Origin: Cafeteria roenbergensis
Lineage: Eukaryota > Sar > Bigyra > Bicosoecida > Cafeteriaceae
DNA: 64,000 bases
Reading direction: 5' to 3'
Assembly (NCBI GenBank): GCA_008330645.1
Contig: VLTN01000024.1
Span: 372,001-436,000, forward strand
The position numbers and the translations under genes are program-made. Numbering within the stretch: position 1 is the first letter of the stretch; each line of letters begins with the position of its first letter. The notes under the pieces are model-generated. The model saw nothing but the letters and a program-made list of their open reading frames with translations. It ran no database searches and was not told the origin of the DNA. Shown one piece after another: positions 2,431 to 63,325 of the stretch.

Positions 2431-3717
2431 CTTCCACGGCTGTGCTGCTGCTGCTGGCGGCCCGAGCAACTGTTCCGGAGCGCGGCAGAGCGCCGATGAA
2501 AGGCAAAGCGCCGTTTGGCAAATCCCCGTCGATCGTCGCCGTCTGGCTCTAGCGGGCAGAGTCCCTCGTGGCGAGGCTGCGTCTGCTCTCCCAACCTGGC
2601 AGGCTGCGGACCCGAGCTGCCCCTGGAGCGATGCCCGCAGCTGCTCCGGGTGGCTCTTCTCGCCGCGCTCCGGGGGGCGTGGTTCCGTTGGGCTGGGCGT
2701 GCGTGACGCTGGAGCCGCAACGCTTTGCCACCTCGGCCACACAGATTTGGCCCTCCCTGTGCGGAGTTGGGAGGCCGTTCGGCGTGGGCGCGTCTTGCGC
2801 ATGGACAGCGCGGCGCCGCCGAGCGCCTTCAAGGCAACCTAACATCGAATCCCAGCTGAGACACGCGAGACAGGCAGAGGCGCCGCAACAGCAGCTAAAG
2901 GACGACGCGCAATCGCTCTGGGATACGGCTGTCGCCCTCGCTGCGACCATTGTCCATTCGCGCACGCCCCGCACCGCCGCGTGCGTGGGCTGACAAGCTC
3001 AGGCGCCGCAAGTTAAACCCAGCACCTCTACGCCAGCCAGCGTGTCGCTCCTGCGGGGTCTGAGGAGACGGAAGGAAGCGCTCATCCGGATTGATGTTGT
3101 GTTGCGTGGGCTCTGGAATGAAGAGATCCGGGCGGACATGTGCTTGGCGCGCCGGAAAATGAATGCCGCCTGCCTGCGACGGTGGCATTGCAGCCCTGGT
3201 TCCGCCAGACTCGGCTCCTCTCTGCGCGCGTGTGGTTTGCAATGGCCAAAGCCTCCAAGGGTCTGCAGCTGCCGCAAGCCCCAAGCGCCGAATGTGGCAT
3301 ATGACTGCGACCAGCCAATCGCGCATCCGCAGAGAGGCGTCAGCTTTTTGCGGTTTCGCTGGCACTTGGACGTTGCTGGTGCTTTGGCATGACGCCGTCG
3401 GGACAGCAGGCGTCGCTGCTCTCACTGGCACGCCTGCGAGCCGAGGGAGGCGACGAGGCACACTCGGCCGAACCAGGACGCACGCCGCCCTGTGCAATGC
3501 CGAGTGGAACACAAGCTACCACCAGCGTACTCAAGCAGCGGCTCGTGTTTGCAACCGAAAAAGAGGTTCGGCGTCGTGCTCCCACGGCTCGCTGTTGGCG
3601 ATCTCCAGGTCGGCAGAGCGCTGCTCAGTTCCGGCTCGCCCCCGCCCGCACTCGCCTCGCCGCGCAGGCCTCTGCTTGCCCCGCGCTGCTAAGGGCGCTC
3701 TCGGGACGGAAGCCGAG
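2431..3717. promoter_or_regulatory. Divergent intergenic region between OGT and PRP28
   Basis: About 1.3 kb separates two genes transcribed away from each other, so it must hold both promoters and 5' UTRs. Short open frames run through it on both strands, but none shows a recognisable domain, a leader or paired splice sites. I see no TATA box or repeat that stands out. An undetected 5' non-coding exon of either gene is possible. Confidence 0.4.
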
Positions 3718-15500: not shown

Positions 15501-17069
15501 GTCTTCCTCGAGGACCTGGGGCCGCTGTCAGAGGCCGACGCCGCAGCGGGGGCAGGGCTGGGCGCCGCGGTCCAGCAGCGCAAGGGGGCGGTGCCCGTGC
15601 CCGTGCTGGAGCTGCGGGCGGCTGCGGACGAGGCGGAGGCCGCCGACGCGTCTCTCGCCGCCTCTGGGCCCGGGCAGCCCCCGGGGCGCCAAGCAGGGAC
15701 GCGAGCGCCTGCCACTGCGGCCAGCGGTGGCGCCGTGGCCGCAGCGCCTCCAGCGGCCGCCGGATCCTCCAGCGCGGGGCCCCACGACCAGTTTGGGGGA
15801 GCCTTCTCCGGGTACGCGAGGGGCCAGGGCCCCGCCGCAGGCCCCCCGCCGGGCGAAGGGGTCCGCGCACTGGAGGCCAGGGTGGACGCGGCGGTGGCGG
15901 AGGCGGTGGAGGCGGCTTCCGAAGACTTTGCGCGGTGGCGGGCGAGCGAGGAGGCAGCGTTCGCGGCTGCGCTGCGAAGGCAGGAGGCCGAGCTGAGGGA
16001 GAGGCTTGAGGCGGAGTACGGCCGGCGGGAGGAGGAGCGGCGGGCGGAAATGGCGGCGGCGAGGGCGCATGTCGACGGGCTGGAGAGGCAGCTGAAGCGC
16101 GCCACGGTCGCGGCCGAGCAGCGCGCGCGGGCGGCCAAGGCGGCCAAGGAGGAGAGCGAGCGGGCGGCGGCGGCGGCGCAGCGCGAAGCCGAGGCGGAGT
16201 CCCGGTGGGCGCGGGAGGCCGCGGAGGCCGGCATTGCAGCGGAGCGGCGGCGCGCCGAAGCGGCGGAGCGGCGCCTGGAGGAGGAGCGCGCGATGCGGCT
16301 GGAGGAGGCGGCGCGCAGGGAGGCCGCGGAGGGCAGGGCGGCCGAGGCGGCGGAACGGGCAGGGAGAGGGCCCTCGGCCGAGGCGGCTGAGCGGCTGGCC
16401 GGGGCGCTGGCCGAGAGCGGCGTTTTGCGCGATCGGCTGGAGGAGGCTCGCGCGGCGGCGCGCGCTGCCGAGGAGAGGGGGAGGCGGTCGCGAACGCAGG
16501 CGGTGCGGCTGGCGAGGGAGGTCCAGCGGCTGCGGGCGCAGCAACGGGACGCGGCGGCCCTGGAGCTGCACAAGCTTCGCGTGGAGTTCCTCGCGCGGGA
16601 GCAGCGCGCGGCGCTGGAGGGGGACGCGCAGCGACTGCGGGCCATCCGGCGGCGCATCGAGGCGCTCCGGGGGGAGGACGACGCGGGGCGGAGCAGGCGC
16701 GATGGTGGGGCGCGCAGCAGCGCCGGCGCGGCGCCCTCGCCTGCGTCTGGGCGCCCGCGGGAAGCCCCGGGCGCGCCCGCCCAGCCTGCGTGGCGGCAGG
16801 GCGCTGCGCGGCTGCGGCAGGAGGCAATCGAGGAGAGCAAGGCCGGCTCCAGCGGCGAGGACACCGAGGGGTCGGACGAAGAGTCTGCCGGCAGGAGCGG
16901 GGCCCCAGCGGCCGGCGCCGTCGGCGGTGGTGCGCGGGAGCCGGCTGCCGCGAAGGAGGGCGTGCAAGCGCTGCGCAGGCAGAGGGCCGAGCTTTTGCGC
17001 GACGGCTACTCGGAAGACGACCAGATGGTACAGCACATCGACCTGCTTCTCTCCGTGAGCGACGCGTAG
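12578..17069 (+). CDS. CEP120: CEP120-like centriole elongation protein
   Basis: CEP120 promotes centriole elongation and basal-body assembly through C2 domains and a C-terminal coiled coil. Two exons (12578-12691, 12918-17069) give 1,421 residues; human CEP120 is 986. Exon 1 (MAVDGRRIQLRVALSSGRGF) aligns with the first strand of the family's N-terminal C2 domain and joins, phase 0, to the remainder ending in GWFVIDLRHVEAG. A second C2 domain lies at about 252-356 and a third at about 700-836 (HFRLSVEVRSVRDVA). A Glu/Arg/Ala coiled coil covers about 1023-1293. The extreme C-terminus (LRxQRAELL then YSEDDxMVxxIDLLL) matches the conserved CEP120 ending. The extra length comes from disordered linkers between C2 domains, rich in Asp/Ser and in an EEDEAADGA repeat. 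The order C2-C2-C2-coiled coil and both termini make the call strong. Confidence 0.9.
14308..14366 (+). repeat. AGCGAC tandem repeat (Asp-Ser) in CEP120
   Basis: Imperfect agcgac/agcggc units encode a DSDSDSDSDSGSDSGGDGGG-like acidic, phosphorylatable stretch in the linker before the third C2 domain. The six-base unit keeps frame. Confidence 0.9.
14664..14742 (+). repeat. 27-nt in-frame tandem repeat in CEP120
   Basis: Three near-identical copies of a ggcgcggaagaggacgaggcggcggac-type unit encode GAEEDEAAD. The third copy is shortened. It forms a strongly acidic segment between the second and third C2 domains. Confidence 0.9.
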
Positions 17070-20867: not shown

Positions 20868-23436
20868 ATGGCTCACGCCGCCATCACGAGCAGCATCGTG
20901 CTCGAGCGGACGGTCCAGGCGAACTCGAACCCCCGCAAGGCGACGGATGGGCCGGTCCGCAAGGTGAGGCCGACACCCGTGCAGCCAGACGAGCATGCCC
21001 GGCCCGCGGGGCGAGCCACCCGCTGGGACGGGGCCGTCGCGCGGCCTCTCAGGCGCGGCCGTGGCATTCGATGCTGAACGAACCGCCACGCCCGTTTGTA
21101 TTTTTCCCGTGCCATCGAGCGGCCGGCCAGGGCTGCCCCAGCGCCCCAGCGCCCCAGCGCCTGCTGCACGCCGCGCGTCGGGATGCCAAGCATCGCTGGT
21201 CCACCCCGCGCCGGTCCCTGACCCCCCCCCTGGTTGCCCCGTGTGGCTGCAGTTGACCACGGAGCTGCTCAAGACTTACAAGCACATCAACGAGGTTTAC
21301 TACAAGAAGAAGCGCGAGCGCCAGCGCCAGCGAGAGGCCGCCAAGAAGACGTACGACTTCCAGGTGAAGATTGGGGAGGTGCTCAACGGGCGCTACGAGG
21401 TGCAGAAGGAGCTGGGAAAGGGGTCGTTTGGCCAGGTGGTGAGCGCGCACGACAGGCAAACAGACCTGTCGGTCGCGATCAAGGTCATCAAGTCCAAGGA
21501 CGCGTTCCGCAAGCAGGCCAAGACTGAGATCCAGCTGCTGCAGCTGCTGAACTCCATGGACCCGGACGACCAGTGGGGCATCGTGCAGCTGCAAGAGGTG
21601 TTCGACCACGGCAAGCACGTTTGCCTGGTGTTTGAGCACCTCTCCTTCAACCTCTTTGAGCTCCTGAAGCGCATGAAGTTCACCGGGGTATCCCTGAACC
21701 TGATCCGCAAGTTCGCGCGCCAGATCCTCAAGACGCTGGCCTTCCTCAGCCTGCCCGACATCGACGTTGTTCACTGCGACCTCAAGCCCGAGAACATCCT
21801 GGTGCGCCAGCCCTCCCGCTCCGCCATCAAAGTCATCGACTTCGGGTCGAGCTGCAAGCGCGCCAAGCGCATGTACTCGTACATCCAGTCCCGCTTCTAC
21901 CGCTCTCCGGAGGTGATCCTCGGCCTCCCCTACGACCAGGCCATCGACATGTGGTCGCTCGGATGCATCCTCGTCGAGCTCCACACGGGCGTGCCCCTCT
22001 TCGCCGGCCGGGACGAGATGGACCAGATGCACCGCTTCGTGTCCCTCAAGGGCCTGCCTCCCCGCCACATGCTGGAGAAGGGCCGCAAGACCGCGCAGTT
22101 CTTCTTTGTGGAGAAGCAAATATGGGACGCCATTCCGGCCGTGCCCACTCCCCCAATGCCGCCAATGCCGGCGCGCGGGGCGGGCCGCACCAGCGCGGAG
22201 CTGTTCTCCGTGCCGGGCATCCCTGACTCCGCGTGGGACGTGACCGCGCCGGTGCCCGAGCCCTCTGCTGAGCAGGACGGGGCTGGACAGTCGTCGTCTT
22301 CCTCCTCCTCCTCCTCGTCGTCTTCTTCATCGGCAGCAGCGGGGGCAGGGACACGGGCTGGCGCAGCAGCTGCGGGCTCGACCGCGGCCGCCTCTGCCGG
22401 CCGGGCCTCCGGGCCCGCCAGCTCATCGTCGTCCGCGGCCGCCGGGACGGCGGGCGCCACAGCCGCCTCGGGGGCAGCGCCAGAGGCGGCCCGGACCAGT
22501 GCCGACCCGTCGCTGCCTGCCGCCGCCGCCGCCGCTTCTACTGCTGCGGCCGCTGGCGCGAAGCCCTCGTTTAGCCCCGCCTCAGGGGCTGCCGGCCGAT
22601 CGCTGCCCTCATGGACGTCCGACCCCGGCCAGGCCGCGTCGGACCATCGCGCCTCCACGGCGGGGGCCGACGGTGCTTCCGCTGGCTCCACGGCCGCGCC
22701 TGGCACCTCGGATTCTGGTTCCGCTGCTGCTGCTGCTGCCGCTGGCTCCGGCAACGTGGCTGGCAGGCTAGCCCCCCCCCACCTCCCCGCAGCAAGCGTG
22801 CGTGACAAGGAGGCCCTCGCCGCCATGGTGCTCCGACGCAGCGCAGAGCGCTTCCGCGCCATCCGCGAGCAGTCCCTGCCCTCCAGCTACTCCCTCAAGC
22901 CGCGCTCCGAGCGGCCGGGCGCGTCGCAAGAACAGGCCATGGTGTCGGACCTGCGCGAGGCCCTCGGTGTGCACACGTTCGGGCCCAAGGGCCGTCGCCG
23001 GGACGAGCGAACGGGCCACACGGAGCGCCACTACGAGCTCTTCCTCGACCTCATCGAGCGGATGCTCGAGTGGGACCCCCGAAAGCGGGTGCGTCCCATG
23101 CAGGCGCTCAACCACCCATTCCTGCGCGAGGACGTGGAGGCGGGGAGGGAGGACGCGGCCGCATCGCGCACGGGTACGCCCTCCGGCAGCAGCGGCCCGG
23201 GCGGCGCAGCGGCAGCGCCCGCAGCGGCAGCCGCGGACCCCAGCGACGCCACTCCGGCGGCAGGGCACGTGAGGTCCACGGCGGCCGCAGCGGCCGTAAG
23301 CGCGGCCGCGGCGATGGCAGCATCCGCTTCGTCTGGCGCTGCTGCCGCCTCCGCCGCCCCTGCGGGGCCTCGCAGCTCGGCGGCGGCCCACCTTCGTTCA
23401 GGTGAGACGGACAGCCGAGGCTACACCATTCTGTAG
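20868..23436 (+). CDS. DYRK1: DYRK1/Minibrain-type dual-specificity kinase
   Basis: DYRK kinases autophosphorylate an activation-loop Tyr during synthesis and then act on Ser/Thr. Two exons (20868-20963, 21253-23436; intron 289 nt, phase 0) give 759 residues; human DYRK1A is 763. The join GPVRK-LTTELLKTYKHINEVYY reproduces the DYRK1 pre-kinase motif and DH box. The kinase has GKGSFGQVV, the ATP-binding Lys109 (VAIK), HCDLKPEN (Asp208), DFGSS (228) and the loop MYSYIQSRFYRSPE, with Tyr242 as the autophosphorylated residue. The pattern LGVHTFGPKGRRR-TGHTERHYELF matches the DYRK1 C-lobe segment, but about 280 residues of Ala/Ser/Gly/Pro-rich sequence (roughly 322-602) separate it from the GRKTAQFFF segment that should lie close by. 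A low-complexity tail follows. The ATG at 20868 has a good context; no nuclear signal or His run like those in vertebrate DYRK1A is seen. Confidence 0.93.
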
Positions 23437-35700: not shown

Positions 35701-38700
35701 GCCTGCCTCCAGGCGGCAGACGCCTCGCTCGACCTCAACGGCCCCTCCATCTTCGTGCCCGAGGCCGACCCTATCCAGCTTGACGAGGCGCCAGCCGGCG
35801 CGCCCAATCAGGCCGACATGGACCGAGGGCCTGCCGGCGGCCCCGCAGCTGCCGGTGGTGCGGCTGCCAGTGCCGCAGGCCGGCGCAGCGCCGGTGTGCC
35901 AGCCAAGCGACGCCCTGACCCGACAGCACCTGAGCCAGCCGGCCCTGCCGCTCTCCCCTCTGCCGCCCCCCCCTCTGCCGCCCCCCCCTCTGCGGCTCCC
36001 TCCTCTGCCGCCCCCTCCTCTGCCGCTCCCCTCCCCCCTCTGCCGCCCCCCCCTCTGCGGCTCCCTCCTCTGCCGCCCCCCCCTCTGCCTCCCCCCCCTC
36101 TGCCGCTGTCGCTGGGGTCGTCAGGAGCGGGGACGGGGCCAGGGCGCGGACGCTGCCCGCGACCCCGCCGCGAACGCCTGCGCTTGCGGCGGCGACGCAC
36201 CGCCCGTGGAAGGGCGCCAGCTTCGCCGAGGCGGTGACGTCCGCCTCGGCGGTGGCCAGGGCGCGCGCGAGCGAGGCAGTGGCCGGCCTCCCGCTGCCCC
36301 TGCCTCTGGACCTCAGGCTCGCCCTCGGACTGCAGTCTGCGGCCTTCAGCGGCCGCCACGCCGCCACCACCGTGGCCGGCCGCGCCGCCGTGTCGCACAA
36401 GGAGGCCAGCCAGGCGGCGGCGGAGGAGTTTGACGCCGACGGGCTGTGCCGGCTGCTGCACTCTCAGGGGGTGAACCTGCGCTGGCTGGGCCGCGTGTGG
36501 GCGGGGTGCGAGTGCGACGTTCCCCGGCTGCGCATCGGGGTGGAGTGCCTGGCCCGCACCATGCGGACGAGGCTGCGCAGCCGCTGGCGCCGCGTGGAGG
36601 CCCGCCGCGAGCACGGGCTTGGGCTGTGCGGCGACCACGAGCCGTGGCGGAGCGCCGCTCGCCGCGCCCTCAACGAGGCTTGCGGCGTGGGCGCGCGATC
36701 GGCGCTCGCGTGGGTGATGCTGCTGCGCACCGCGATGCGCAAGTTCGAGGGGCTGATCGAGGGCGGTTTCGTCGGGCCGGCGCTGCGGGCCGCGCTGGAG
36801 GCCGACCCGGCAGCTGTGGCGGACCAGCTGGGCCAGACGCTGGAGAGCGTGGGCGCGGAGGAGGAGGCGGACCTGCCTCCCGCGGGTGCCCCCGGCAGAG
36901 CAGCGCAGGTGCAGGCGCAGGCGCAGGCGCAGGGCCGGGCCACCCCCAGCCCGGCCAGACAGGCCTACCTGGAAGCGCTGGGGTCAGCCTCCGCCGCCCC
37001 GACCCCCAGTCTGCGGCCGCAGCTGCCGCCCCTGCCCGACGCGGCAGACTGGCTCGCGGACCTGAGGGCGCTGCGGGAGCGCATTCCGCCCGGCGCGCTG
37101 GCGCTGCGAGCTGCTCACCTGTGCGGCGTCAAGCTGTCGTCCGACGTGCGCGACGCCATCGCCAGCAGCGGGGCCCGGCTGTTCATGGCCGCGGAGCCCT
37201 TCTCCGACGCGGACATCGACGACCTGCTGCCGCGAATGAAATCCACCCCTATGCGGCACTACGCAGAGGGCACGCTGCAGCTGATGCGCTCCCTCCACGA
37301 GGCGGAGGAGGCCAAGCGTCGCTCTCGCGAGGAGCAGATGGCCGCGCTCCCGCCGCCGCAGCAGCAGTCCCCGGCCCCCGGAGCCGGCTCCTCGCAAGCT
37401 GCCTCGGCCGGTGGCGCCGCGTCGCTTCCGGCCGAGGCCGCGGCGTCCCACGGGGCCGGCCCACGCCACCCGGGAGTCCTGCCCAGGGCAGGCGCCCTCC
37501 CCGCTGCCACCTCTGTCTCTCGCAGCGCCGCGACTGGTCCTGGCAAGGGCGCCGTGCCTCGGTCCGGCCCCGCGCCTGCTGCCGCCGCTGCGCCCCAAGC
37601 CAGCTCGCCGTACCCCATCGAGGCGAATGACCCCGCCTTCCCTGACGGCATCCACCCTCACATGGGGGCCTCCCATGTGCGGCAGGCGCTGTCCGCCGCG
37701 CTGTCGTTCGAGACAGCCCTCGCGCTGGGCGGGGACGACGCTGCAACCCTGTGCAACTACGGGTACCTGCTGGAGACAGTGCTGGGAGCGCCCCGCCTCG
37801 CACTACACGTGTACGCCCACGGGCAGGAGACCTCCCCGACGCACTCCCGCGCCCGCTACTACCTTGCCATGTGCCTGGACAAGGCCTCCCGCCGCCTGCG
37901 GAAGGACAACCAGTCCAAGTGTGTGGCCCCCAACCGCAGGCAGTGGCTGCACTTGCAGGGCGGCATCGGGCTGCGCCACGCCGTGGAGCTCGACCCGCGG
38001 CTCGCCAACGCGCGGAAGGACCTGGCCAACTTCCTGCGCCACACGGGCCCCAAGCTCAGGAGCGACGACGCGACGAGGCGGTGGCTGGCTGCGGAGCAGC
38101 AGTTCCGCCGCGTTCTCGCGGTGGACGCCAGCCACAGCATGGCCTGGCTCAACTTGGGGCAGCTGCTGCTGGCGCTGCGGGAGGACTGGGTCAAACGCTC
38201 CCGGGCAATGGCGCGCGCAGCGGCCGCTCGAGAGGCCAGCCGGCTTTTGCCAGGCCGCCAGCCGCCAAGCGGCAGCCGCGGCGACCACTCTGGCCGCGCG
38301 AGCGACGCCTCGTCGGCCGGCAGCGGCAGCCGCAGCTCCAACCGTGGCAGAGAATCGCCCCCCCGTCCTTGGGGGCGCAGCTCGGCGGAGGCCACCACGG
38401 CGGAGCTGCACAACGCGATGCTGGCCGTGCGCCGAGGCACCGAGCTCGGCCTGTTCCCCGCGAGCGGCGCGTGCGCCCTGTCCGAGGAGGAGGACGGCGA
38501 GATTGTGCGGTTCGGCATTGCGGGGGTGGCGCTGGCATGCATGATGCGGGGCGCGCGCAGCAGCAGCATGGCCGGCCGCTACCTCATCATCACTGCGCAC
38601 CCGCTCGTGCGGGCCGTCACCGGCACGATCGCCAGCTACGCCCGCCAACGCCAAAATGCCCTTAAGCGGGATAAGCAGCGCGGCAGCGACCGAGTTGCGG

Positions 38701-39764
38701 CCCAGATGGCCGTTCAGCAGGGGTGGGACGACCTGCCTCCGCAGCACCTGCTGGACCGCATCGTGTGGCAGTGCCTCGACCTCATCGCGCAGCGCGTGCT
38801 GCACATCGTTGGGAACTCGGGCCAGGACGGGAAGCTCTCCGATCACCTCATCATCAAGCCGGCGCACGGCACGTCGCTTGGCTACGGGGGCGCGGAGCGC
38901 GCCGGCAGGTTCAACCGCAAGGGCGCGGTGCCTGGCTCGGCGGAGTCGCTGTCTCCGGACATGGTGAACTTGTGCACGGCAGAGCTGCTCAAGCCCCGCA
39001 CCGACGTCGAGCCGCAAGTGCTGATGCGCGTTGCAGAGGCGGCCGAGCACGTGTGGGCGCCTCAGGGAAGGCAGTCGCTGTTCGTGCGCTGTCAGGTGAC
39101 CCAGCTGACAGAGGGCAGCGCAGCAGTGGCGACCCTCCTGTACGATCGATCCGGCCGCACGCGCACCAGGGCGGTGCTTGAGTCGCTGCAGGCGGTCAAG
39201 GACGAGCTGTCCGTGGCGCAGCTGAGCAACAGCATGCTGCACGACTGCCTGGAAGGCACCGCGCCTCGGACGCATGGCGTGCAGGGCGCGTGGGCCGACG
39301 GGCCGCCTTGCGCCCAGGAGGCTATCTACCCGCCCTTCTTTGTGGTAGACGAGTCGGGAACTGTGACGCGGACCGCCGACGCTCACGAGCGGCTGGCCGA
39401 GCCGGCCTGGCTCGCGAAGCTGGTCGCTACAGTCCAATCTCTGGGACGGCAAACGGTCGGAGCGAGCCGGCTGGACAGGGCCAAGGTGATGTGGGTCATG
39501 GAGGCGCTTGCTCGAGCCGCTGCGGCAAGCATCGGCATCCACAACGCATTCATCACGGACTGGGATTGGGCTCAAGTGCGTATCCGACTCGGGGAGGCGC
39601 CGCAGCCGGTTGCATCGCAGTCTCTGAGGCGGGTCATCTTTTACACTTTGGCTGCGTGGTGGTGCCAGCCATCGTGGCACTGGGAGGCGGTGTGGAAGGC
39701 GCTGCTGCTGGCCAGAGTCGACGTGCGCCGGCTTATCAGGCCGCTGTCGCTCAGCGAGACGTGA
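32740..39764 (+). CDS. CLU: Clustered mitochondria (CLU/CLUH) protein, frame broken near 36030
   Basis: CLU/CLUH binds mRNAs for mitochondrial proteins and keeps mitochondria dispersed. Two long frames together would encode about 2,340 residues; human CLUH is 1,309. Frame A (32740 to stop 36237) has a disordered lead of about 290 residues and the CLU core (33820-34215: KFLVGSILFRFA, LPLMTLVDWLGYRMVAVSRLPIN, DTLVYGSADG). The partner segment HVAFGPVDLEVH plus YVVDFARLFPPE follows. Frame B (open from before 36100 to 39764) has the central LLHSQGVNLRWLGRVW block and TPR-like helices (about 37680-38170), then about 450 residues unknown to me. The parts lie in CLU order, so this is one gene. No intron with plausible splice sites bridges the frames. 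The shift falls in a ctctgccgccccc repeat, so a sequencing or assembly error in C runs, or a real one-base indel, is more likely than splicing. Start ATG 32740. Confidence 0.85.
35950..36110 (+). repeat. C-rich minisatellite (CTCTGCCGCCCCC type) in CLU
   Basis: Repeated tct-gcc-gcc-ccc type units encode Ser-Ala-Ala-Pro in the linker between the two halves of CLU. The Ser-Ala-Ala-Pro reading lies in frame A up to about 36030 and in the next frame afterwards, so the repeat itself records the frame change. Confidence 0.92.
36025..36041 (+). other. Apparent one-base frameshift site in CLU
   Basis: Between the ccc at 36028-36030 and the next tct at 36039 lie eight bases instead of a multiple of three. 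Upstream the repeat reads SAAP in one frame and downstream in another, joining directly to the second CLU half. A single missing C in the run at 36033-36038 would explain it. Confidence 0.75.
36907..36936 (+). repeat. CAGGCG hexanucleotide repeat (Gln-Ala) in CLU
   Basis: Four to five caggcg units encode QAQAQAQ in a linker of the second half of the CLU protein. Confidence 0.9.
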
Positions 39765-48148: not shown

Positions 48149-51100
48149 ATGGCCGCCCAGGCCATCATCGATGACGCGTCTCGAGGCTGTGCCTCCGAGG
48201 CCGGGCTCGGGCGACTTGTCGTCACGCTGCGTCCAGTTCTCAGTCTTCCCGAGGGCGCCAGCCTGGACGACACCAAGTGAGCGGCGGCAGCCGTTTGCCT
48301 GCGCGGACGTTGGAGCGCCATACGCACGGCGCGCCAGCCGTGTGCCCTGGCAGTGCGCCCCATGCCGTGTATTTTGCAGAAAGACAGCAGCCAGGATGGG
48401 CGGGTTCGTGCTCAAGCTGGCCCAGACTGCGACGAGGGCACTCCGCGCGGGGTCGAGTGGGAACGGGCCGACTTGCGACGCGGCCTCGGCTGCAGTGCAC
48501 TGCTTGTATCGCATTCGGTCTGCGCTGCGGTGCGACAAGCACGCCCTGCTTCGGGCGGAGTGCCAGGTCGTGACGCGCGCAGCTGAGTGCCAGCTATTTC
48601 CGGCGGTGGTTCGCGAGGCGGCCTCCCTCGCCGACCTGTGCGCCGGGAGGCCCGTGCGCCTCTTCGTCGAGCGCCTCCCCTCCGCCGCGGTGTCTCGCAT
48701 CGCGGCCGGCTCGGCCACGCAGGACGAGCAGGACGCCTTCGCCGACTGCGTGCTCGCCGCTGCCAGCTTTGCGGCCCCCGGCCGCGGCCACGACGCGGCC
48801 TCTGCCAGGCTCGTGGTGTCGGCTCTGCACGCGACGCTGGTGGCGCTCGCGCAGCTGGGGGAGGTGGGCGCTGCTTGTCGTCTGGCGACAGAGGCTCTCC
48901 CCGCCTGGCTGGCTGCGCAGGCCGAAGCGGACGGCGCAGCGGCCGACCACGGACGGCGCGACGTCGGCGCCGCTGCCCAGGCAGGGAGGACGCCGGGAAA
49001 GGCCCCTCGAGCGCCCCTCACGCCCTCGGCGCCGCGCGTGGCCAACGCAGCCTCCGCCGCTGCCGGCGGCAAGGCGACCCGCGGCGCGCCCTCCGTCGCG
49101 CAGACGGGAGCCGGCGGGGTGCCCGCGGGCGGGCCGGCGGCTGCCATGGCGGCCGGCCGTGCCCGCGAGCTCTGCGTCCGTGCGTTGCTCGCCGCGGCTG
49201 ACCACGCGGCCGCTGGAGCGGGCAGGGCCTGTGCGGGGGAGGCTCTCCCGAACGGCGGCGCCGTGGCGCGAGCGGCCCGCTCGGCCAGCCTCCGCGTTGC
49301 CGCAGCGACGCTGCTGCTGGACACCGGGGCCGTGGCAGCCAGCGCGGCAGCGGCAGCGGCGGGCGAAGAGGCGGACGCGGACGACGCGGCGGCCGAGGCT
49401 ACGGCCCGCGCCGCTGCTTTGAGGGAGGCTGCGGTCGCCGCCATGTCGGCAGCAGCGGCGGGAGTCAGAGTTCTGCAGGAAGTGACCCCTGGCAGCGACG
49501 AAGCGGCGGAGGCGGGGTCCTTCGTCGTGGCCAGGCCTCGCGGGGGGGCGGCGCTGGTGGAGCCCTCTGGCGCCGGCAGCGTGCGCGGGATGAGCCTGGG
49601 GCGGGCGCAAACGGTGGCCGTGGCGGCGCTGCTGCTGCCTCTGGCCGAGCGTGTGGCCAGGCGCGCCCCAGAGGGCGAGGCGGAGGCCGTGGCGGACTGG
49701 CTTGCGCGGGCAGCGGACGCATGCGAACGGGCGGATGACGTGGCAGGCGCGGACCGGTGCAACGAGCTGGCGCTGGCCGTGTGCAGACGCGAGGCGCGGC
49801 TGGCGGGAGCCGCGCTGGCCGCTGCACCGCGCGGCAGCGGCAGCGGTAGCGGCAGCGGCAGCGGCAGCGGTAGCGGCAGCGGCAGCGGCAGCGGCAGCGG
49901 CAGCGGCAGCTCTGTGAAGCAGGCGAGCCGGCTTGTCGCGGCGGCTGCGTCAGAGGCCGCCACGCACGTCTGGGCCGGTCGCAGGCTGCTTGAGCGATGG
50001 CTGGCCGACTCTGGCAGCCCGGGGCAAAGTGCCATCACTGCCGGCAGAGCTGCAGAGCGAGCCCCTGGCACGGTGTTCCGCACCGCGGCGAAGCGGTCCC
50101 GACGCCACGGTGCCAGTGACAGCGATGCCGACGACGACGAGCACGGGGCAGCGACCCCTGCAGAGTCAGGTGCCGGCGGCGCCGCAGAGGCGGCAGGTCC
50201 CGGGCAGGGGCCCCTCGCGAGGCGCCTTGGCTTCGGCGCCGACAGCCCGGCAGACAGCCCAGGAGCTGCTCCGGCCGCGGCACTGGCATCGCGCTTCGGC
50301 GCAGATTCGCCCGAGCCGGCCGGCCGCCGCCGCCGCCCCCACCCCGTCGAGACCCCTGCTGCGTCGCGCCCCGTCCGCTCCCGTGGCGGCGCCGTGGCGC
50401 AGTGCCACGAGCGGCCGGAGGGGGAGACCCCCTCAAGCGACGCCGCGGCCCCGGGAGCGCCCCCCCCCGCAGAGGCAGCAGCGGCACTGCGGGCTGCTGC
50501 GCAGGCCATCCGCCACGCCCGGTCCAGCGAGCTGGCCTGGGCGGAGCTGCGCCGCGGACACGGGTGGCAGGCGCAGAGCCCCCGCTGGCTGGCCGCCGTC
50601 GAGGCTCTCATGGCAGTGCGGCCGCTGCTCGTGGCAGCAGCCGACACCGCAGGCTCGCTCGCAGATGCGCCGGACGACGTTGAGACGCCGTCGCCGGAGC
50701 AGATGGCGCACGCAGCCGCCGGGGCGGGCAAGACGCCCGGCAGAGCCGCCGGGGCGGGCAAGACGCCCGGCAGAGCCGCCGGGGCGGGCAAGACGCCCGG
50801 CAGAGCCGCCGGGGCGGGCAAGACGCCCGGGTGGACACGCGGCGGCCCCGGCAAGACGCCCGGCCGCGGCGCTGTGCCGGCCTCTGTGCTTGCGGCGAGA
50901 GAGCTGACGAGGACAGCGAAGAAGGCTCCCGGAACGTTCCACAAGCGCGCCCGGGCGACGCCTGGGCTGGCGGCTCTGGCGGCGATGGCGAGCACTCCCG
51001 GCAGAGCTCTCAACTTTGGAAGCGTGGAGGACTCTGACGACGACAGCGAGGCGAGCGAGGCGAGCGAGGGAGCCATGCCCAAGCGGGGTCGGGCGGGGCT

Positions 51101-54100: not shown

Positions 54101-57005
54101 GGAGGGCTCTGCATCGGCTCTGCTTGGCCAAGCGTCGTGGCTGGGGCTTGAGCGGGCGGTGGAGGCAGCGGGAGGCGCAGCGGCGGCGGGGGCGCCGTCG
54201 AGCGCCGGCAGCCCCGGCGTGCCGCTGGCTGCAGTGGAGGCAGCGGCGGCGATGCAGGTGCTGGCGGCCGCGGGTCCGGTCGCCGTCCTCGACGGCGGGG
54301 CTGCCATCGGAGCGGCCGGGGCTGCGGCTGGCACACCGCAGGCGCTGTGGTCGGCCGTGGCGGAGGCGGAGGCGGCGGTGGGTGCCGTGGCGGAGTCGGG
54401 CTCGCCCGCCGAGGCCGCGGCTGCGGCTGCGGCCGCGGAGGCGGCGGCTGCCCGGCTGCGCCCGCTCGCCGCCGACCGCGTGGCGGCGCTGTGGCGCTGT
54501 CGTGCGCTGTGCGCTGCTGCGTCGGCGTGGACCCACTTGGAGTGCCAGACGGCCCCTGGCGGCGGCGCTGGCTGCGGAAGCTGCGCTCCGGCTGCTGCGG
54601 CTGCCGCTGCGGCGGCCGCGTTCGAGAGCCTGACAGGGCCGCAGGGCGCCACAGGGGGCGGCCGAGGGGCCGCTCTGGCCTGCGCCTGGGCGGGGCTGGC
54701 GGCGGCAGGGGCCTCGCTCCCCGCCCAGGCTGTGGCCCGCCGCGCTGTCGTTGCAGCTGCCGTCTGTGCGGGCCTGCTGGTCGGTCCGGCAGCGGCGCGC
54801 GTGGCCACGGCCGTGGCCGCTGGAGGGGAGGAGGGCGAAACCGCCGCAGCCGCCGCCCCCGCCGCCGCCACAGGCTGGGCCCGGCGCGCGATTGCAGCTG
54901 CGCGGGAGGCCGCTGCGGCAGGGGGCGCTGCTGGCGGATTCGATGCGGGCGTGCTGGCACGGCTGGCAGAGCTGCCTTCCCAGCCGGCCCCGGCGGTCTC
55001 CGCACGGGCAGCTGGCCTTCGGGGTGCGGCGAGGCACGGCACGCCCCCGGAGGCGCACGCTGTGCTGCCGAAGGACGCCGTCTCGCTCCAGGAGGCGCTG
55101 CTGCAGTGGCTGCCCGCCGGGGCCGGCGCGGGCTCGGCCGGCGCGGCGGGCGCGGCGTCGTCGCCGGGCGTGGCTGCCGGCGCTGCCGCCGACCCCACCG
55201 CCGCACCTGCCGGCGCTGCCGCCGCCTCTGTGGCTGCGTGGCGCGTGCGGCCGGGCGGGCCCGTGCTGCTTGCCTGGCACCGCGGCAGCGAGGGATGCGC
55301 CTGGCTGGCCGGGCCGCAGCAGTGGACAGGCCCGCCCCAGCAGACGGTGCGGCGGGCAGCGGCGCGCCTGCCTGGGGAGATCAGGCTTGTCGCTGCCTGG
55401 GCGGCGCCTGCAGGCGGCTCCGCGGCCGGCGGCGGCGCCTGCGTGGCCCGCTGGCCGCACCCCGAGGCAGAGCTGGAGGCCGTGCTGCTGACGTCGGGGC
55501 GGTCCGTGCGCGCCGGAGCGGCTCGCGGGGCCGACTGGCGGACGTCGGACCGGGCTAGGTGGTGGCGCGCGCGGGAGCACCAGGATGCCTGGCTGGAGTC
55601 GATGGCCCTCCGGCTGGCTCGGGCTCTCAGGGGGCCGGGGGACGCGGCCTCGCTCTCGGCCGGCCACGCGGCGGCGCCAGGGACCGACGGCGGCGCTTCC
55701 CCTTCGGCCGGATCAGGGGCCGATGCGAGCGATGGCTCTGCCAGCGACGAGCCCGACGGCCCGCCAGCCCCGAGCGCGCCCCTGGCGCCTGTGGCAGACG
55801 AGCCGGGAGCGGCCGGTCAGGCGGCAGGTGTGGCAGCGGCTGCGGAGGAGCAGGAGGAGGTCGACGAGGGCGAGGAGCAGCAGGAGGAGGAGGATCTGCT
55901 CCCGCCCCCGCCGGCGGACGGGTGGGCGTCTCTTCGTGTGGTCGACCTGCGAGCCTTGCTGCGAGCGGCCGGGGCCAAGACCTCCGGCCTGAAGGCAGCC
56001 CTCGTCGCCCGCGTCGAACGGCTCTACCACGAGCAGGAGGCTGATAAGTCGCAAAGGAACGCCGCGCCAGCCACGCCAGCGCCCGCGGCGGCCGCGTCTG
56101 CCGCCGGGTCCGGCGGCCTCGCAAGCCAGGCCTCTGCGCCACGAGGAGCAGCGGCGGAACCTGTGGCCGTCCCAGCCGGGGCACCGGCGGCATCGCCCGG
56201 CACGGTCGCGGCTCCCAAGCAGAGCCACGCCGCGTGGCTGGCAGGGGCCACGAGCGTCCGGCTGTGCCTGGGGCCGGGGCTTGACGCGCTGCCCTGGGAG
56301 GCGGCGGTGGCCCGCTCGGCGCCCGACGCGGTGGTGGTGCGGGCCGCCCCGGTGCGGCTGGCTGGGGAGGCCGTCGGTCAGCTTGCCGAGCGGGGCCGGC
56401 CGGAAGACCAGCGGGAGGCGTCGCTGCTGCGCGGCGGCGCGGTGGTGAACCCGAGCGGCGACCTGTCGTCCACTGAGACAGCGGTCGTCACTGCGCTGCG
56501 GCGAGCGGTCGAGGCGGCGCCGCCCGCCGGCCTGGGAGGGCGCTGGCGCGTCCACGCTGGCACTGCTCCGGCAGAGGCCGAGTTCGTGGGCCTGGCCTCC
56601 CGGGGAGGGGCGTTCTTGTACTCTGGCCACGGAGCCGGGTTCAGCGTGTGCCCTGCGGACGCCATCGCAGCGTCGACGGCGCCGCTCGCTCCAGTGGCGC
56701 TGGTCATCGGGTGCTCCTCGCACCGGCCGGCCGGCAAGGGGTGGCTTGGCTCAGCGGTGCCCGCGCACTCGTACGCAGCAGGAGGCAGTGCCACGGCCGT
56801 GGGGTGCCTCTGGGACGTGACGGACGGCGACGTGGACAGGCTGACGGCGAGGCTGCTGGCGGCGGCCGCCGAGGCCAAGGACGCCTCGAGCGTGTCGGTG
56901 GGCGCCCTGCTGCGGGAGGCAAGGGCCGTCTGCCGGCTGCCGCACCTGACGGGCGCAGCCGTGGTATGCAGCGGCGTAGACTCGCTCGTCAGGCTTCGCA
57001 AGTGA
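48149..57005 (+). CDS. ESP1: Separase (cohesin protease, peptidase C50) with embedded SAP domain
   Basis: Separase cleaves the cohesin kleisin at anaphase and licenses centriole separation. Two exons (48149-48276, 48380-57005; intron 103 nt, GTGAG/TGCAG) give 2,917 residues; human separase is about 2,120. The C-terminal protease block is complete: [25 protein letters not shown], the catalytic His2793 in YSGHGAG, Cys2821 in [11 protein letters not shown], then [19 protein letters not shown]. His and Cys are 28 residues apart (26 in human). The long Ala-rich N-terminal region is presumably a helical-repeat scaffold, but I cannot match it by motif. Just before the protease block, after an acidic [16 protein letters not shown] stretch, residues about 2558-2592 form a SAP-like helix-turn-helix ([31 protein letters not shown]). 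Two internal repeats (Ser-Gly and GKTPGRA) add length. No securin gene was seen nearby. Confidence 0.93.
49831..49911 (+). repeat. GGCAGC hexanucleotide microsatellite (Gly-Ser) in separase
   Basis: About thirteen ggcagc/ggtagc units encode a GSGSGS run near residues 527-553 of separase, a likely flexible linker. The unit keeps frame. Confidence 0.95.
50715..50866 (+). repeat. 30-nt tandem repeat encoding [10 protein letters not shown] in separase
   Basis: Three perfect copies and one partial copy of a 30-base unit (gccgccggggcgggcaagac onward) encode [10 protein letters not shown], followed by a diverged [10 protein letters not shown] copy. This gives five GKTPG motifs at about residues 822-872. 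The perfect identity of copies suggests recent amplification. Confidence 0.95.
55923..56027 (+). other. SAP-like DNA-binding motif within separase
   Basis: About 35 codons encode [17 protein letters not shown] then [17 protein letters not shown]. The pattern L-x-V-x-x-L-R-x-L-L-x-x-x-G, two to five residues, G-x-K-x-x-L-V-x-R matches the SAP motif (SAF-A/B, Acinus, PIAS). It lies between an acidic segment and the protease block. Confidence 0.8.
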
Positions 57006-57304: not shown

Positions 57305-58533
57305 ATGCAGCGTGCAGGCGCTGCGGTGGCCAAGCGGCTTGCGTCCTCGGTGTCGTCAGCAGCCGCTCGAGTGACGCCGGTGGACCCGCCAGTGCAGCGA
57401 CTGTGAGTCAGTCGCGCCGCGGCCGCTGGTTGTCGAGGGCCGCGACGCACCTGGGCCCACGCGCCCCGCGGCGCCGTATTTGAGCGCGAGCGCCGTGCGC
57501 TGCTCGACGCCGCTCCGCGTTTTCCGCCTTTTCCGCGTTTGGCCGCAGGGCGCTTTCCCGCGGGGACATCGGCTATACGGATGAGCCGGGTTCAAGCGCA
57601 GGCTGCCCGGTCATTGTGGCGCTGCACGGCGGGCCGGGGTCCGTGCACGACTTTCGGTACATCGGGGGCGCGCTGGGCTCGCGCGCCAGGCTTGTGCGCC
57701 TGGACCTTCCGGGCCACGGGTCCAGCGCGGAGCACGTGGCGGAGTCGCCGTCCACCAAGCACGCGGCCGAGGCCGCGAAGGAGGCGTGCGACTTGCTCGG
57801 GCTCGGAGACAGCAAGGTCGTCGTGATGGGTCACAGCTTGGGCGCCCAGATTGCGCTGGAGCTCGCTGTGCAGCTGGGGCCTGCGCGGGTCGCTGGCATG
57901 TGCATGCTCGCGCCGGTGTCGCTTCGGCCGCACCAGGCGCTGCGGCCGTACTGGCTGGTCCAGGCCCTCAGCAGCGCGCTCACGCTGCCCCTTGTCGGCG
58001 ACGCGCTGTTCAAGCCCCTCATCTGGCTATTGTACACACAGCTCCTGGGGTTCGACCCCAAGCGCACCAGCGCGGCGGAGAGCGCCTTCACCATGCGGCA
58101 GGTGGGGCTGCTCGACTTTGAGCGGGCGGCCTCCAACGCCAGGGCGATCAAGTGAGAGCTGCATCCCCATGCGGCCCCCCGCAGCCGCATGGACGGCCCC
58201 AGAGCCGCGCCGCCGTGCCGCGCGCCGCGCGGTGGTCTCGCCAGCGCCCTCGCGCCGCCGCCGCCGCCGCTGAGGGGGTCCCGCTGCTCTCGCGCTGTGC
58301 ACCGCAGGGCGTATGGCGTCCCCGCCATGGTGTGCTGGGCGACGGACGACCCCATTTTGGAGCCCGCCATCGCCAAGGAGCTGGGCGCGGCGCTGCCGGC
58401 GGGGCCGCGGCTGGAGTTCTCCAGCGGAGGGCACTTCATGAACAAGCACCACGCGGCGGAGGTGGTTGACGCGCTGCTGGACATGCTAGGGGCAGCGGCG
58501 GGCAGCGCCGCACCGGCGCGCAGCCGCCTATGA
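57305..58533 (+). CDS. Alpha/beta hydrolase, probably organelle-targeted
   Basis: Three exons (57305-57402, 57549-58151, 58308-58533) give 308 residues; introns are 146 and 156 nt with GTGAG donors and CGCAG acceptors, in frame. The fold is complete: oxyanion motif HGGPGS (59-64), nucleophile elbow GHSLGAQ (Ser129), acid Asp247 or Asp248 (ATDDPI) and catalytic His276 (SGGHFMNKH). A helical cap (WLVQALSSALTLPLVGDALF) lies between. The first exon (MQRAGAAVAKRLASSVSSAAARVTP) resembles a mitochondrial or plastid leader: basic, Ser/Ala-rich, no acidic residues in the first 25. The substrate is unknown; such proteins include esterases, epoxide hydrolases and lipases. The start fits because it is the only frame that joins exon 2 in phase 2. 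Confidence 0.85.
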
Positions 58534-58832: not shown

Positions 58833-61601
58833 TCACTGCTTGGGCTTGTGCTTCCTCCCCCCACGGGGCCGGCGCCTCCGCGAGGCCTCCTCCGCCTCCG
58901 GCGCGTCGGAGCGAGCGGCAGCAGACAGCGCCTGCTGCGGTTGGGGAGGAGCCGGTTCCGCCTCCTTGTCCGCCGCCCTGGCCGCCTTGGAGTGCAGCGC
59001 CCCCAGGGAGCCGTCGTCCTGCGCCCACTGGATGACCAGGTGCCGGCCGTACAAGTGCGACGAGGCGAGCGAGGACACGGCGGTGCGGGCGTCGGCGGCG
59101 GATGCAAACTCGACGAAGCCGAAACCGCGGCCGCTGCCGCCCTGCTTGCGCGGCAGGCGGACGTTGCGCAGCTTGCCAAAGGCCCCGAAGAGCTGGCGCA
59201 GGTCGTCGCGCGTGGCCTCGAAGGCGAGGTTCTTGACCAGCAGCTTGGTGGCGGCGCGCGTGGGGGGCGCCGTGCCCGACGCGTCCTTTGCCGCCCTCCG
59301 CTGCACGGTCTTGTCCGCCCTGGGCGCTGAGCGGCTGATGGAGAGGTCGAGGGCCCGGCCGTCGAGCACCGTGGCCTGCAGCCGCTTGACAGCCTGCGTG
59401 GCATGGGCCGGGTCCTCGAACTCGACGAAGCCGTACCCGAGCGACTGCCCCTCACGCCCGGCCACGGCGGCGCGGCGGGGAATCTTGACGGCCCTGACCG
59501 GGCCCACTGTGGCGAAGAGCTCCTCCACGCCGCCCTCCGAGGTGGAGAAGGCCAGGCCCTTGACGAACACGGTGGCGGCGCCGCTCGGGGCAGCCGACGC
59601 AGCGCCCTCCTCCGCGGCGTCCTCCCCGTCGGCGCCGGCAGCGGCGGCCTCTGCGGCAGCGCTGGCTGCTGCGGCGGCCGCAGCGGCGGCGGGGTCCGGC
59701 TGAGCAGGCGCGTCCGCGCTCACCGTGCCCGTGGGGGCCCACTCCAGGTAGAGCGGGACCGATTCGTAGCGCTTGTATGCCAGCCCCTTGAAGGCGCGCT
59801 TCGCGTCCACAGGGCGCTCGAACTCGACCACCGCCAGCACCTTGGCCGGGGGCAGCACCAGCCGCACCAGCGGCCCGAAGCGGCCGAAGAGACCCCGCAG
59901 CGCCGGCGCGGACGCCGCCGCCGGCAGGTTCTTCACCAGGATCACCGTGTCGCTGCGCATCGACGCGCGCAGCTTCTTCCCGCCAAGCGCCAGCTGCAGC
60001 GCCGCCAGGTCGACCCCTTGCGCCCTCAGGAAGGACTTGGTCTGGTCAATCACCGCCGTCTCTCCCAGCGCCACGCGCACGGCCAGGTTGTCCGCCGACG
60101 GGTCCAGCACCTCGCCAGCGGACTTGCCCGCGGCCGCGGCCGCGGCCTTGACCGCTGCGTCGGCCCTCACAAAGAGGCCGTTCCACGCGGCCGCCTCCTC
60201 CCCGGAGGCCGCCGCCCGCCGCCGCGCCTGCTCCTTGGCTGCCTGGTACTCCGACACGCCGGGGCCGGCCGCGGGGGCGTCGTCGTCCTCGTCGTCGCCC
60301 GCGCCCTTGGGAGCCTTCTTGCCCGGCAGCACGTGCAGGAGCCGCCCCTGGAACATGCGCAAGTCAGCCTCCGCCATCGCCGCCGCGGCGCAGGCCGCCT
60401 GGGCGAAGGCGACGAATCCGAACCCCTTGGACCTGCCCGCCGCGTCCCTCGGCACGCGCGCCTCCGTGACGTCGCCCCACCGCGCAAAGTGCGCCCGCAG
60501 GTCGTCGTCAGAGCATGTGAACGGGAGGTTCCTCACGAAGAGCCGGCCCGCCGCCAGCTGGTCCTCCGCCCCCTCCGCCGTCCTCGCGCGCTTGCTCCCG
60601 GGCGCGGCCGCCCCGCCCTCGCTGTCCGAGTCCGCGTCGTCCGCCACGCGCAGCTCGGCCAGGTCGTCAGCTGGCGTTTCCGCAGGCCTCTGGCGCTTGC
60701 TGCTGCGCCGGATCTCGCCGCCCTCGATGTCGAGCGCAGAGTCGTCGCTGGCGTCAGAGGCAGCGTCGTCGTCGTCGTCCAGTTCCTCCTCGTCCTCCTC
60801 CTCGTCGTCGGCCTCCGCGGCCGTATCGCCAGCAGCGCCCCCGTTGCGCTTGGACTGCAGGAAGGAGAGCGCCGAGGCCGAGGCCGCGCCCGTTGCCACC
60901 GAGGCCTCCGCCTGCCGCATCAGCGCAGCCATCTCGTCGTCATCCTCAGCCGCGTCTGCGCCCTTTCCGCCCGAACCCTTGCCGGCACCGTTGCCCTCCT
61001 CGCCCTCAAGCCCGTCATCGCTGTCGCTGTCGCTGTCGCTGTCGCTGTCGGCGTCTGCGGGCGCATCTGCGTCGCTGTCACTCTCCTCCGCATCGCTGCC
61101 CAGAGCGGCAGCCTTGGCGCTGTCCTCTGGACCAGACGCGCCGAGCGCATCACCCCGCTTACGCGCGCGCGCATTGCTCGTGGCTGCGTCGTCGTTGGCC
61201 CACGTGGCCGCGGCGTTGCGATTCGCCATAACGGCCTTGTACTCTTCGAAGCCCTTGCCTGGCGCCGCGGGCGCGTCCTTGGCCGGCCCCGAGTCAGCCC
61301 CCTGGCGCACTTCGGCAGCGGGCTTCGCCGGCTTCGCCCCGTGGACCGGCGTGCCCTTGCCAAACTCAAAGGCCGCTTCCACCTTGACGCGAGTGGTGCC
61401 GAGGAACACCTTGTCCATCTCCAGCGCCTTTTCCGCGTGTTCCGGGGTCGCGAACCCGACGAACGCAAACCGCCGGCTGCGCCCGTCCTTGCGGCGCATG
61501 ATGCGGCAGTCCGTGACGGGCGCGACCTCGGTGAAGAGCTCTCGCAGCTTCTGCTCAGTCGCATGCGTCGGCAGCTGCTTGACGCAAACCCGAGTGGACA
61601 T
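58833..61601 (-). CDS. MRD1: MRD1/RBM19-like five-RRM ribosome biogenesis protein
   Basis: Mrd1/RBM19 acts in the nucleolus within the early pre-rRNA complex and is needed for 18S rRNA processing. This is a single 922-residue exon; RBM19 is 960, yeast Mrd1 887. Five RRMs are visible, as in Mrd1: RRM1 at 1-80 (STRVCVKQLPTHATEQKLRELF), RRM2 about 352-430 (RLFVRNLPFTCSDDDL), RRM3 about 551-620 (VILVKNLPAAASAPALRGLF, with the family's AVVEF and AFKGLAYKRYESVPLYLEW), RRM4 about 676-760 (TVFVKGLAFSTSE) and RRM5 about 785-865 (KLLVKNLAFEATRDDLRQLF). The AFKGLAYKR..LYLEW signature is specific to this family. An acidic, low-complexity stretch of about 200 residues with a DSD repeat lies between RRM1 and RRM2. 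A basic tail (RRRRPRGGRKHKPK) ends the protein. Start ATG 61601, first Met before RRM1. Confidence 0.94.
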   Translation of the reverse strand: MSTRVCVKQLPTHATEQKLRELFTEVAPVTDCRIMRRKDGRSRRFAFVGFATPEHAEKALEMDKVFLGTTRVKVEAAFEFGKGTPVHGAKPAKPAAEVRQGADSGPAKDAPAAPGKGFEEYKAVMANRNAAATWANDDAATSNARARKRGDALGASGPEDSAKAAALGSDAEESDSDADAPADADSDSDSDSDSDDGLEGEEGNGAGKGSGGKGADAAEDDDEMAALMRQAEASVATGAASASALSFLQSKRNGGAAGDTAAEADDEEEDEEELDDDDDAASDASDDSALDIEGGEIRRSSKRQRPAETPADDLAELRVADDADSDSEGGAAAPGSKRARTAEGAEDQLAAGRLFVRNLPFTCSDDDLRAHFARWGDVTEARVPRDAAGRSKGFGFVAFAQAACAAAAMAEADLRMFQGRLLHVLPGKKAPKGAGDDEDDDAPAAGPGVSEYQAAKEQARRRAAASGEEAAAWNGLFVRADAAVKAAAAAAGKSAGEVLDPSADNLAVRVALGETAVIDQTKSFLRAQGVDLAALQLALGGKKLRASMRSDTVILVKNLPAAASAPALRGLFGRFGPLVRLVLPPAKVLAVVEFERPVDAKRAFKGLAYKRYESVPLYLEWAPTGTVSADAPAQPDPAAAAAAAAASAAAEAAAAGADGEDAAEEGAASAAPSGAATVFVKGLAFSTSEGGVEELFATVGPVRAVKIPRRAAVAGREGQSLGYGFVEFEDPAHATQAVKRLQATVLDGRALDLSISRSAPRADKTVQRRAAKDASGTAPPTRAATKLLVKNLAFEATRDDLRQLFGAFGKLRNVRLPRKQGGSGRGFGFVEFASAADARTAVSSLASSHLYGRHLVIQWAQDDGSLGALHSKAARAADKEAEPAPPQPQQALSAAARSDAPEAEEASRRRRPRGGRKHKPKQ
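61015..61056 (+). repeat. GCTGTC hexanucleotide repeat (Asp-Ser on minus strand) in MRD1
   Basis: Several tcgctg/gctgtc units encode an Asp-Ser run in the acidic linker of MRD1. It mirrors the Asp-Ser repeat in CEP120. Confidence 0.9.
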
Positions 61602-63325
61602 GGTCACACGCGCACTGCCCCAGGAGAGCTGTTCGGGCAAGGCGTGGCGGTGGGGGGGCGGACAACTGTGGCCCTGCGGCGGCGCTTGCGCGGCTGCCCA
61701 CGGCGCCAAAGAGCTTCGGGTTGCTTTTCTGTCGAGCTTTGCGCGTGCGGCTCTGCCGGAATTCGAGCTGCCAGCGCCAACGAGCGCGGGCCGACACGAG
61801 CAAGGCATACGAGCCGTTCGGCGAGCCCACTCGCGCTCTCATGCTCATCTCCGGCTTGGGGACGGCGATGAGCGCGATGCGGCGCGAATGTGGCGACCGA
61901 GACCGGCCGTGGAGCCCCCTGCAACTGGAGACTCCTGGCCTCCGGAGGCGGCCAGGGGCGAGGCTGGATGCCGAGACGGCGGCCACGTCGGTGCGGGCGC
62001 GCTCTCCGTCGACCACGCTCGCTCATATCGCGGAGGCGTCCGCTCGCCTCTCCTGCCGGCAAGCCCGGGGCGAGGTCGGCCCGCCGGCTGGCGGCCGGGC
62101 ACTGCGGAGCGCTGTTGCGCCCCTGCTGAGGTCTGCGGGCGGGCAGCCGCCGCACGCCCGCCGAAGAAGGAGGGGAGGGCGCGGGAGGCCGTGCTCCCCA
62201 GGCCGAGAGGGACGTTTCCGGACCTGGCCACCGGCTCCCCCAGCCAGCCGCCGTGCCTGCGCAGCGCGTAGTCGATGAGGGCCCCGCTGGCGTCGCGGGG
62301 CGGCGGCCGACCGCGAGCATCAGGCGACACAGCCGCAGCGCTGGGCTGCCAGGCCCTGCTGTTGTGCCGCCTGCCGCCCATCGCCTCGCCGAGGGACCAC
62401 TCGTCGCTGCGCACCTCGGAGACGGGCACGCCGAGGTCTGCGTCCAGCACGATGCGCCTCCTGGGCACGCCCGGTATGCGGAACGCCGACCTCCTCCCGG
62501 GCACGGCCGGGGCGGGGGATACTGCCCGTCGGTTTCGAACGCGCTGGGCAGCAGGGCGGGGCGCTCGGCTCGACGCTTGGCGCCTGCCCGGCACATGGCC
62601 GCCCAAGAGCTCCGGCACGAGCCGTGCAAACGCCTTCCGTGGCGGATTGGGCTCGCACGGCAACGAGGGGCCGCTCACAAGCCCCGCGGCCAGAGCGTGC
62701 TTCGGCCTGCAGCGGAACCTCGACGACGCAAGCAGCTCGTGTCGTGGCAGGGGGTCCCGCGCGAGCGCTGGTGCGCGCCGGAAGTCTGCACGCGCGTCCG
62801 ATCCCACGCCTGGGACGGTGGCAGTCCTGGCCCGCCTTGGCAACTGCGACGGGTGCAATTTCAACCGGGAGCAAATACGCGCAAAGAGCTGGTCGCACCC
62901 GCTCCACAGCAATTCCGACGCGAGTGATGCACCCGCACGGGCACATCCCCGCGAACCAGGCCGCCCTGGCGCGCGCACACAGACCGCCAGTGCTCACCGC
63001 GTCGACCGCCACACAGCGCTGCGTCGCACAACACGGGGGAGCTGCCCCGGGCCGAGCGCCGCCGCGAGGCGATTCGGGGCGCATGCCCTCGGTGGCCACG
63101 GCCTTTGCCCGTGCCCCCCCCCCGCCGCGTCCGCCCTTGCTTGGCACCCCGCCGGGCCTGCGCGGCGGCCGAGCAGCGTTTGTGCGACCGCCGTCGCAAC
63201 ACGCCTGCGACGGCTCTGCGCGAGGGGCCGGCGTGCGATCGACGAAGCGACGCGAGCCTGACCTCCGAGCGGCGGAGGATGCGAGGGCGCGCCGCCCCAC
63301 CTCTCTATCGAGCTTCCTCGTCGCC
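61602..63325. other. Intergenic region MRD1 / mitochondrial gene
   Basis: About 1.7 kb lie between divergent starts. A 178-codon minus-strand frame is the only candidate gene (listed separately). Elsewhere both strands are open because of base composition; I found no motif, leader or convincing pair of splice sites. Confidence 0.35.
61845..62381 (-). CDS. Doubtful hypothetical protein
   Basis: This is a 178-residue frame from the ATG at 62381 (MGGRRHNSRAW). Sequence just upstream in the same frame (RRRIVLDADLGVPVSEVRSDEWSLGEA) looks more protein-like than the rest of the region. It could therefore be part of a longer, spliced gene whose start I cannot locate. The C-terminal half is Pro/Ser/Arg-rich and uninformative. 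No domain is recognised. It may be an artefact of open GC-rich sequence. Confidence 0.2.
   Translation of the reverse strand: MGGRRHNSRAWQPSAAAVSPDARGRPPPRDASGALIDYALRRHGGWLGEPVARSGNVPLGLGSTASRALPSFFGGRAAAARPQTSAGAQQRSAVPGRQPAGRPRPGLAGRRGERTPPRYERAWSTESAPAPTWPPSRHPASPLAASGGQESPVAGGSTAGLGRHIRAASRSSPSPSRR

Follow-up and report, generated by a model that had tools for sequence, protein, structure and literature searches.

The stretch of Cafeteria roenbergensis DNA analysed here, referred to as the window (64,000 nucleotides of contig VLTN01000024.1), carries on its forward strand a long frame (P0001) that encodes a separase, as judged from its sequence signatures; separase is the protease that severs the rings by which sister chromosomes are joined. 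Pfam was run on 10 of the 22 candidate frames of the window and matched seven of these (Table 1), in which no evident link to separase was seen. The GC content across the window is 66-79% in steps of 2 kb. Many long open frames occur in this GC-rich DNA, among them an antisense frame of 1831 codons overlapping the 5' part of the separase frame, so that the openness of the separase frame is by itself little evidence. Upon division of that frame into 31 blocks, GC was strictly lowest at codon position 2 in 24 blocks, tied in two and not lowest in five. The encoded protein has a high content of Ala, Arg and Leu. Just upstream of the candidate start codon, the sequence TATTTTGCAG (48370-48396, forward strand) resembles an intron acceptor, and the gene may have an extra 5' exon upstream of 48396.

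Table 1. Features located in the window, in order of position.
Feature	Position	Strand	Evidence and remarks
TPR + glycosyltransferase 41 (OGT-like)	4-1761	-	Pfam
DEAD helicase	3163-6354	+	Pfam
Cep120-type domain	12705-17066	+	Pfam
Protein kinase	20968-23433	+	Pfam
TPR-type match	35934-39761		Pfam
Separase frame P0001	47916-57005	+	3029 stop-free codons plus stop codon; one candidate start ATG at 48396
6-bp tandem array, 13.3 copies	49831-49910	+	Codes Gly-Ser run inside separase frame
30-bp tandem array, 3.9 copies, 100% match	50714-50830	+	Codes repeated 10-residue units with T-P-x-R
WR-type helix, residues 2544-2570	55545-55625	+	WWRAREHQD versus published WWxxRxxLD, Leu replaced by Gln
Acidic stretch preceding SAP	55836-55901	+	Sequence
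SAP motif, residues 2672-2703	55929-56024	+	PF02037
Linker, SAP to catalytic domain	56025-56237	+	Ala/Pro/Ser/Gly-rich sequence
Caspase-like catalytic domain	56238-57002	+	C50 84.2 bits; PDB separases; alignment; LPWE from 56289 (residue 2792)
SGHGAG catalytic motif	from 56622 (GHG from 56625)	+	Intact
IGCSS catalytic motif	from 56706 (GCSS from 56709)	+	Intact
Alpha/beta hydrolase	57484-58152	+	Pfam
RRM protein with five stretches	58836-61838	-	Pfam

The T-P-x-R units coded by the longer of the two tandem arrays correspond to [ST]P.[KR], the CDK-type consensus. From residue 160 on, six such sites are present in the separase frame (residues 359, 940, 950, 960, 981 and 1027), a number reached in 6 of 2000 shuffles. 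All six read TPG[KR] and three of them lie inside the array; the shuffle mean of 0.06 applies to a pattern picked after seeing the data. The array region is possibly a CDK-regulated insert.

The assignment to separase was made on the C-terminal part of the protein. Residues 2779-2973 matched Peptidase_C50 of Pfam with 84.2 bits (cut-off 27.8, E 1.3e-23), and this was the single C50 match in the whole assembly of 36303456 bases in 167 contigs. When PDB sequences were compared with the catalytic region, the best 11 of the 13 listed were separases of C. elegans, yeast, Chaetomium and human, with a best E of 1.5e-18. Alignment with the yeast, Chaetomium and C. elegans PDB separases showed invariant GHG and G-C-x-S columns and an identity of 30-36% over the aligned part. 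For an N-terminal alpha-solenoid of the HEAT/TPR-like kind, Pfam gave a sub-threshold AF-4 match and nothing else in that region. Relatives of the catalytic domain were searched by pattern, with 15 and 35 matches in viral_contigs and 11 in genome_contigs (bacteria, archaea), none of them confirmed. In the same genome 13 SMC_N matches were found, nine of them over cut-off; a search for the kleisin, using PF04824, PF04825 and the N-terminal sequence of human RAD21 as queries, gave no match, a result that says nothing about its absence.

Upstream of the catalytic domain, the separase frame contains a SAP motif. Against a cut-off of 23.9, PF02037 scored the full frame at 31.3 bits (E 1.5e-7) and a 146-aa piece holding the motif at 36.0 bits (E 4.8e-9). 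Both the SAP and the Peptidase_C50 profile are thus over cut-off, the SAP match being significant, and the combination of SAP and separase in one frame, proposed in the initial annotation, is borne out. The same holds for the acidic stretch described there in front of the SAP (13 Asp or Glu and no Lys or Arg in residues 2640-2668) and for the catalytic His and Cys, which are in place within SGHGAG and IGCSS. The protease had also been called complete; this applies to the caspase-like catalytic half, the C50 model being matched at positions 214-395 of 395 only.

In a six-frame search of the genome with PF02037, the separase SAP ranked fifth among 16 candidates, ten of which were over cut-off. 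Six of the 15 other frames were scanned for further domains: one is of the Tho1/MOS11 type, one combines a Ku domain with a SAP at the C-terminus, another shows a WW domain and a sub-threshold RING, and three have the SAP alone. The Ku-type SAP (35.7 bits) and the Tho1-type SAP (48.3 bits) score comparably to or above that of the separase. A local SAP profile was built from 10 of the 15 non-separase candidates, leaving out L013-L017, which are partial and below cut-off, and retaining L012 though it is below cut-off; two members, L007 and L008, have the same sequence over the motif. This profile gave 23.0 bits on the whole separase frame, for which 1000 block shuffles reached 12.9 at best, and 27.9 bits on residues 2600-2775, compared with -2.9 for the reversed piece. 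Among 20000 shuffles of residues 2600-2775, 11409 obtained any reported score, with a maximum of 8.6 bits. Chance or composition as the source of the SAP signal was ruled out by these shuffles. By blastp, the nearest of the ten profile SAPs was that of L012, with 52% over 31 residues (E 4e-5). The SAP-like stretch concerned (L012 1501-1593, 21.7 bits, sub-threshold) lies in a frame that by eye resembles a membrane transporter.

Helices were predicted at about residues 2675-2684 and 2690-2713, giving a putative helix-loop-helix, but Foldseek and VIA with the SAP model returned no significant fold match. The AF2 model of the C-terminal 654 aa had a pLDDT of 38 and no fold claim rests on it. For the SAP of RAD18, the available text of PMC9399289 reports that ssDNA affinity drops on changing the His, Gly or Leu at the start of the loop or the Gly or Lys at its end. 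Three of these five positions are kept in the separase SAP, both glycines as G2686 and G2691 and the lysine as K2693; Ala stands in place of the His and the Leu (RAD18 mapping by eye).

The position of the SAP was determined relative to the WR motif, WWxxRxxLD, described as highly conserved in separases in the part of PMC4626109 consulted. The stretch WWRAREHQD (residue 2549, from 55560) contains the sole WW in the separase frame. A loosened WWxxRxxLD pattern was present in 84 of 20000 frame shuffles, and phmmer with Chaetomium on the WR region gave -0.9 bits, which is not significant alone; the assignment is supported by the order and place of the motif. The SAP begins 123 residues after the start of the WW, and 88 residues separate its end from LPWE. 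In human separase, residues 1773-1920 match C50 model positions 69-245 and the segment begins at the WW motif. Since the WW lies upstream of the SAP here, the SAP falls inside the separase C-terminal module; in the linear order of motifs it follows the WR motif and precedes the catalytic strand. The upstream WR motif ruled out that the SAP was simply fused to the front of the protease module, and the placement of the SAP in front of the protease, as given in the initial annotation, is correct with respect to the catalytic domain only. According to the accessible part of PMC12609080, the WR-motif residues W1776 and W1777 touch substrate near the cleavage site in human structures, so the insert comes after the substrate-contacting helix in sequence.

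The distance from WW to PWE is 244 residues here, compared with 127 in human, 170 in Chaetomium and 155 in yeast. On these linkers, the local SAP profile scored 27.0 bits for Cafeteria and at most 1.4 bits for Chaetomium and yeast, with no score for human. The comparison covers human, yeast and Chaetomium, and Pfam was applied to the human linker alone, where PF02037 had no match. A MAFFT alignment of the four linkers was unreliable between the WR helix and LPWE. The earlier statement that known separases lack a SAP agrees with the missing signal in these three linkers, but the contrast was drawn too strongly, as human securin-separase itself binds DNA. In the available text of PMC6858450, this binding is to dsDNA, without sequence specificity and with a KD of about 300 nM for 50 bp. 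Peptide cleavage kinetics of human separase are described there as unchanged by DNA, and DNA binding is said to localise the enzyme to chromosomes; DNA-dependent chromosome recruitment of separase is credited to Sun 2009.

One frame carries the domain order, the catalytic motifs, the SAP signal and part of the DNA-contact loop. For this separase of a Cafeteria-like flagellate it is proposed that the SAP, inserted in the linker that follows the WR helix and leads into the catalytic domain, would tether the enzyme to DNA near cohesin, a reading to which we give slightly better than even chances. The SAP, held on flexible linkers, would bind chromosomal DNA with low affinity and little preference for sequence. 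Once bound, it would keep separase on the DNA encircled by cohesin, and the tether would enrich kleisin locally around the active site and leave the chemistry of cleavage unchanged. Direct tethering to chromatin, as suggested in the initial annotation, is plausible. Two points speak against a tether: the acidic stretch adjoins the SAP, and in hnRNP U most selective DNA binding is done by a domain other than the SAP, as stated in the part of PMC10403129 available. A stronger version, tentative and rather doubtful, is that cleavage of cohesin becomes dependent on DNA in cis through the SAP. With the SAP lying after the substrate-contacting WR helix and before the catalytic strand, DNA and kleisin would be docked side by side, and mainly cohesin on the bound DNA would be cut.

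The separase SAP could also be real and serve contact with protein or RNA, for instance a partner or an inhibitor, or be an almost neutral insert that a permissive loop accommodates. We regard this as unlikely on balance, though it deserves weight: low-complexity linkers flank the SAP, the WW-to-PWE length varies among separases, and SAP domains are minor DNA binders in some cases according to the same part of PMC10403129. The SAP core and most of the loop are nevertheless kept between those low-complexity flanks, which suggests selection. It is improbable that the hairpin is an ordinary helical linker of separase which drifted towards SAP likeness in a protein where Ala, Arg and Leu abound. 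A helical-looking stretch is found at the same place in human separase, but that segment has no PF02037 match, and neither the other linkers nor the composition shuffles approach the local profile score obtained here. Absence of the segment from the mature message, as an intron or through a wrong gene model amid chance open frames, is very improbable: the antisense frame overlaps the 5' part of the gene, and in the linker that follows the SAP (residues 2726-2750) the second codon position does not have the lowest GC (0.84 versus 0.84 and 0.64), but it does have the lowest GC in all three 25-codon blocks holding the SAP (residues 2651-2725), and a single frame is common to the WR motif, the SAP and the catalytic domain. 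Removal of the SAP via a GT[AG]AG donor was ruled out, a scan of 55001-57005 for that donor type alone having found no such site.

The way in which separase is directed to the correct kleisin sites is only partly understood, with DNA binding as a possible contributor, as far as described in the available parts of PMC12609080 and PMC6858450. A small separable module of the DNA-binding type, of about 40 residues, would make the contribution of DNA to cleavage directly testable. If the tether reading is true, it would illustrate how a targeting module can be accommodated in the linker that joins the WR helix to the catalytic domain; if cleavage depends on DNA in cis, a dedicated module would do the job that human separase does through a DNA-binding surface. 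A literature search lacking preprints and most subscription papers found no description of a SAP-separase architecture and nothing on a Cafeteria separase.

The protein shares with the known C50 separases (human ESPL1, yeast Esp1, C. elegans SEP-1 and Chaetomium) the catalytic domain with GHG and GC.S and a WR-type motif upstream of it, and differs from them by the SAP placed after the WR helix and before the catalytic strand and by a WW-to-PWE distance of 244 instead of 127-170 residues. With the SAP proteins Tho1/SARNP, Ku70, RAD18 and SDE2 it has in common the PF02037 match, the Gly...Gly-x-Lys loop and the predicted helix-loop-helix. Its SAP lies within a protease module, unlike two others of the same genome, the Ku-type SAP being C-terminal and the Tho1-type SAP near the Met taken as start. 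The closest parallel in function would be the DNA-dependent recruitment of human separase to chromosomes, in that DNA binding would bring the enzyme to its substrate, although the human linker tested has no SAP signal. Because DNA binding by human separase has been published, the role of the separase SAP would not be new; what would be new is a recognisable SAP module and its place in separase.
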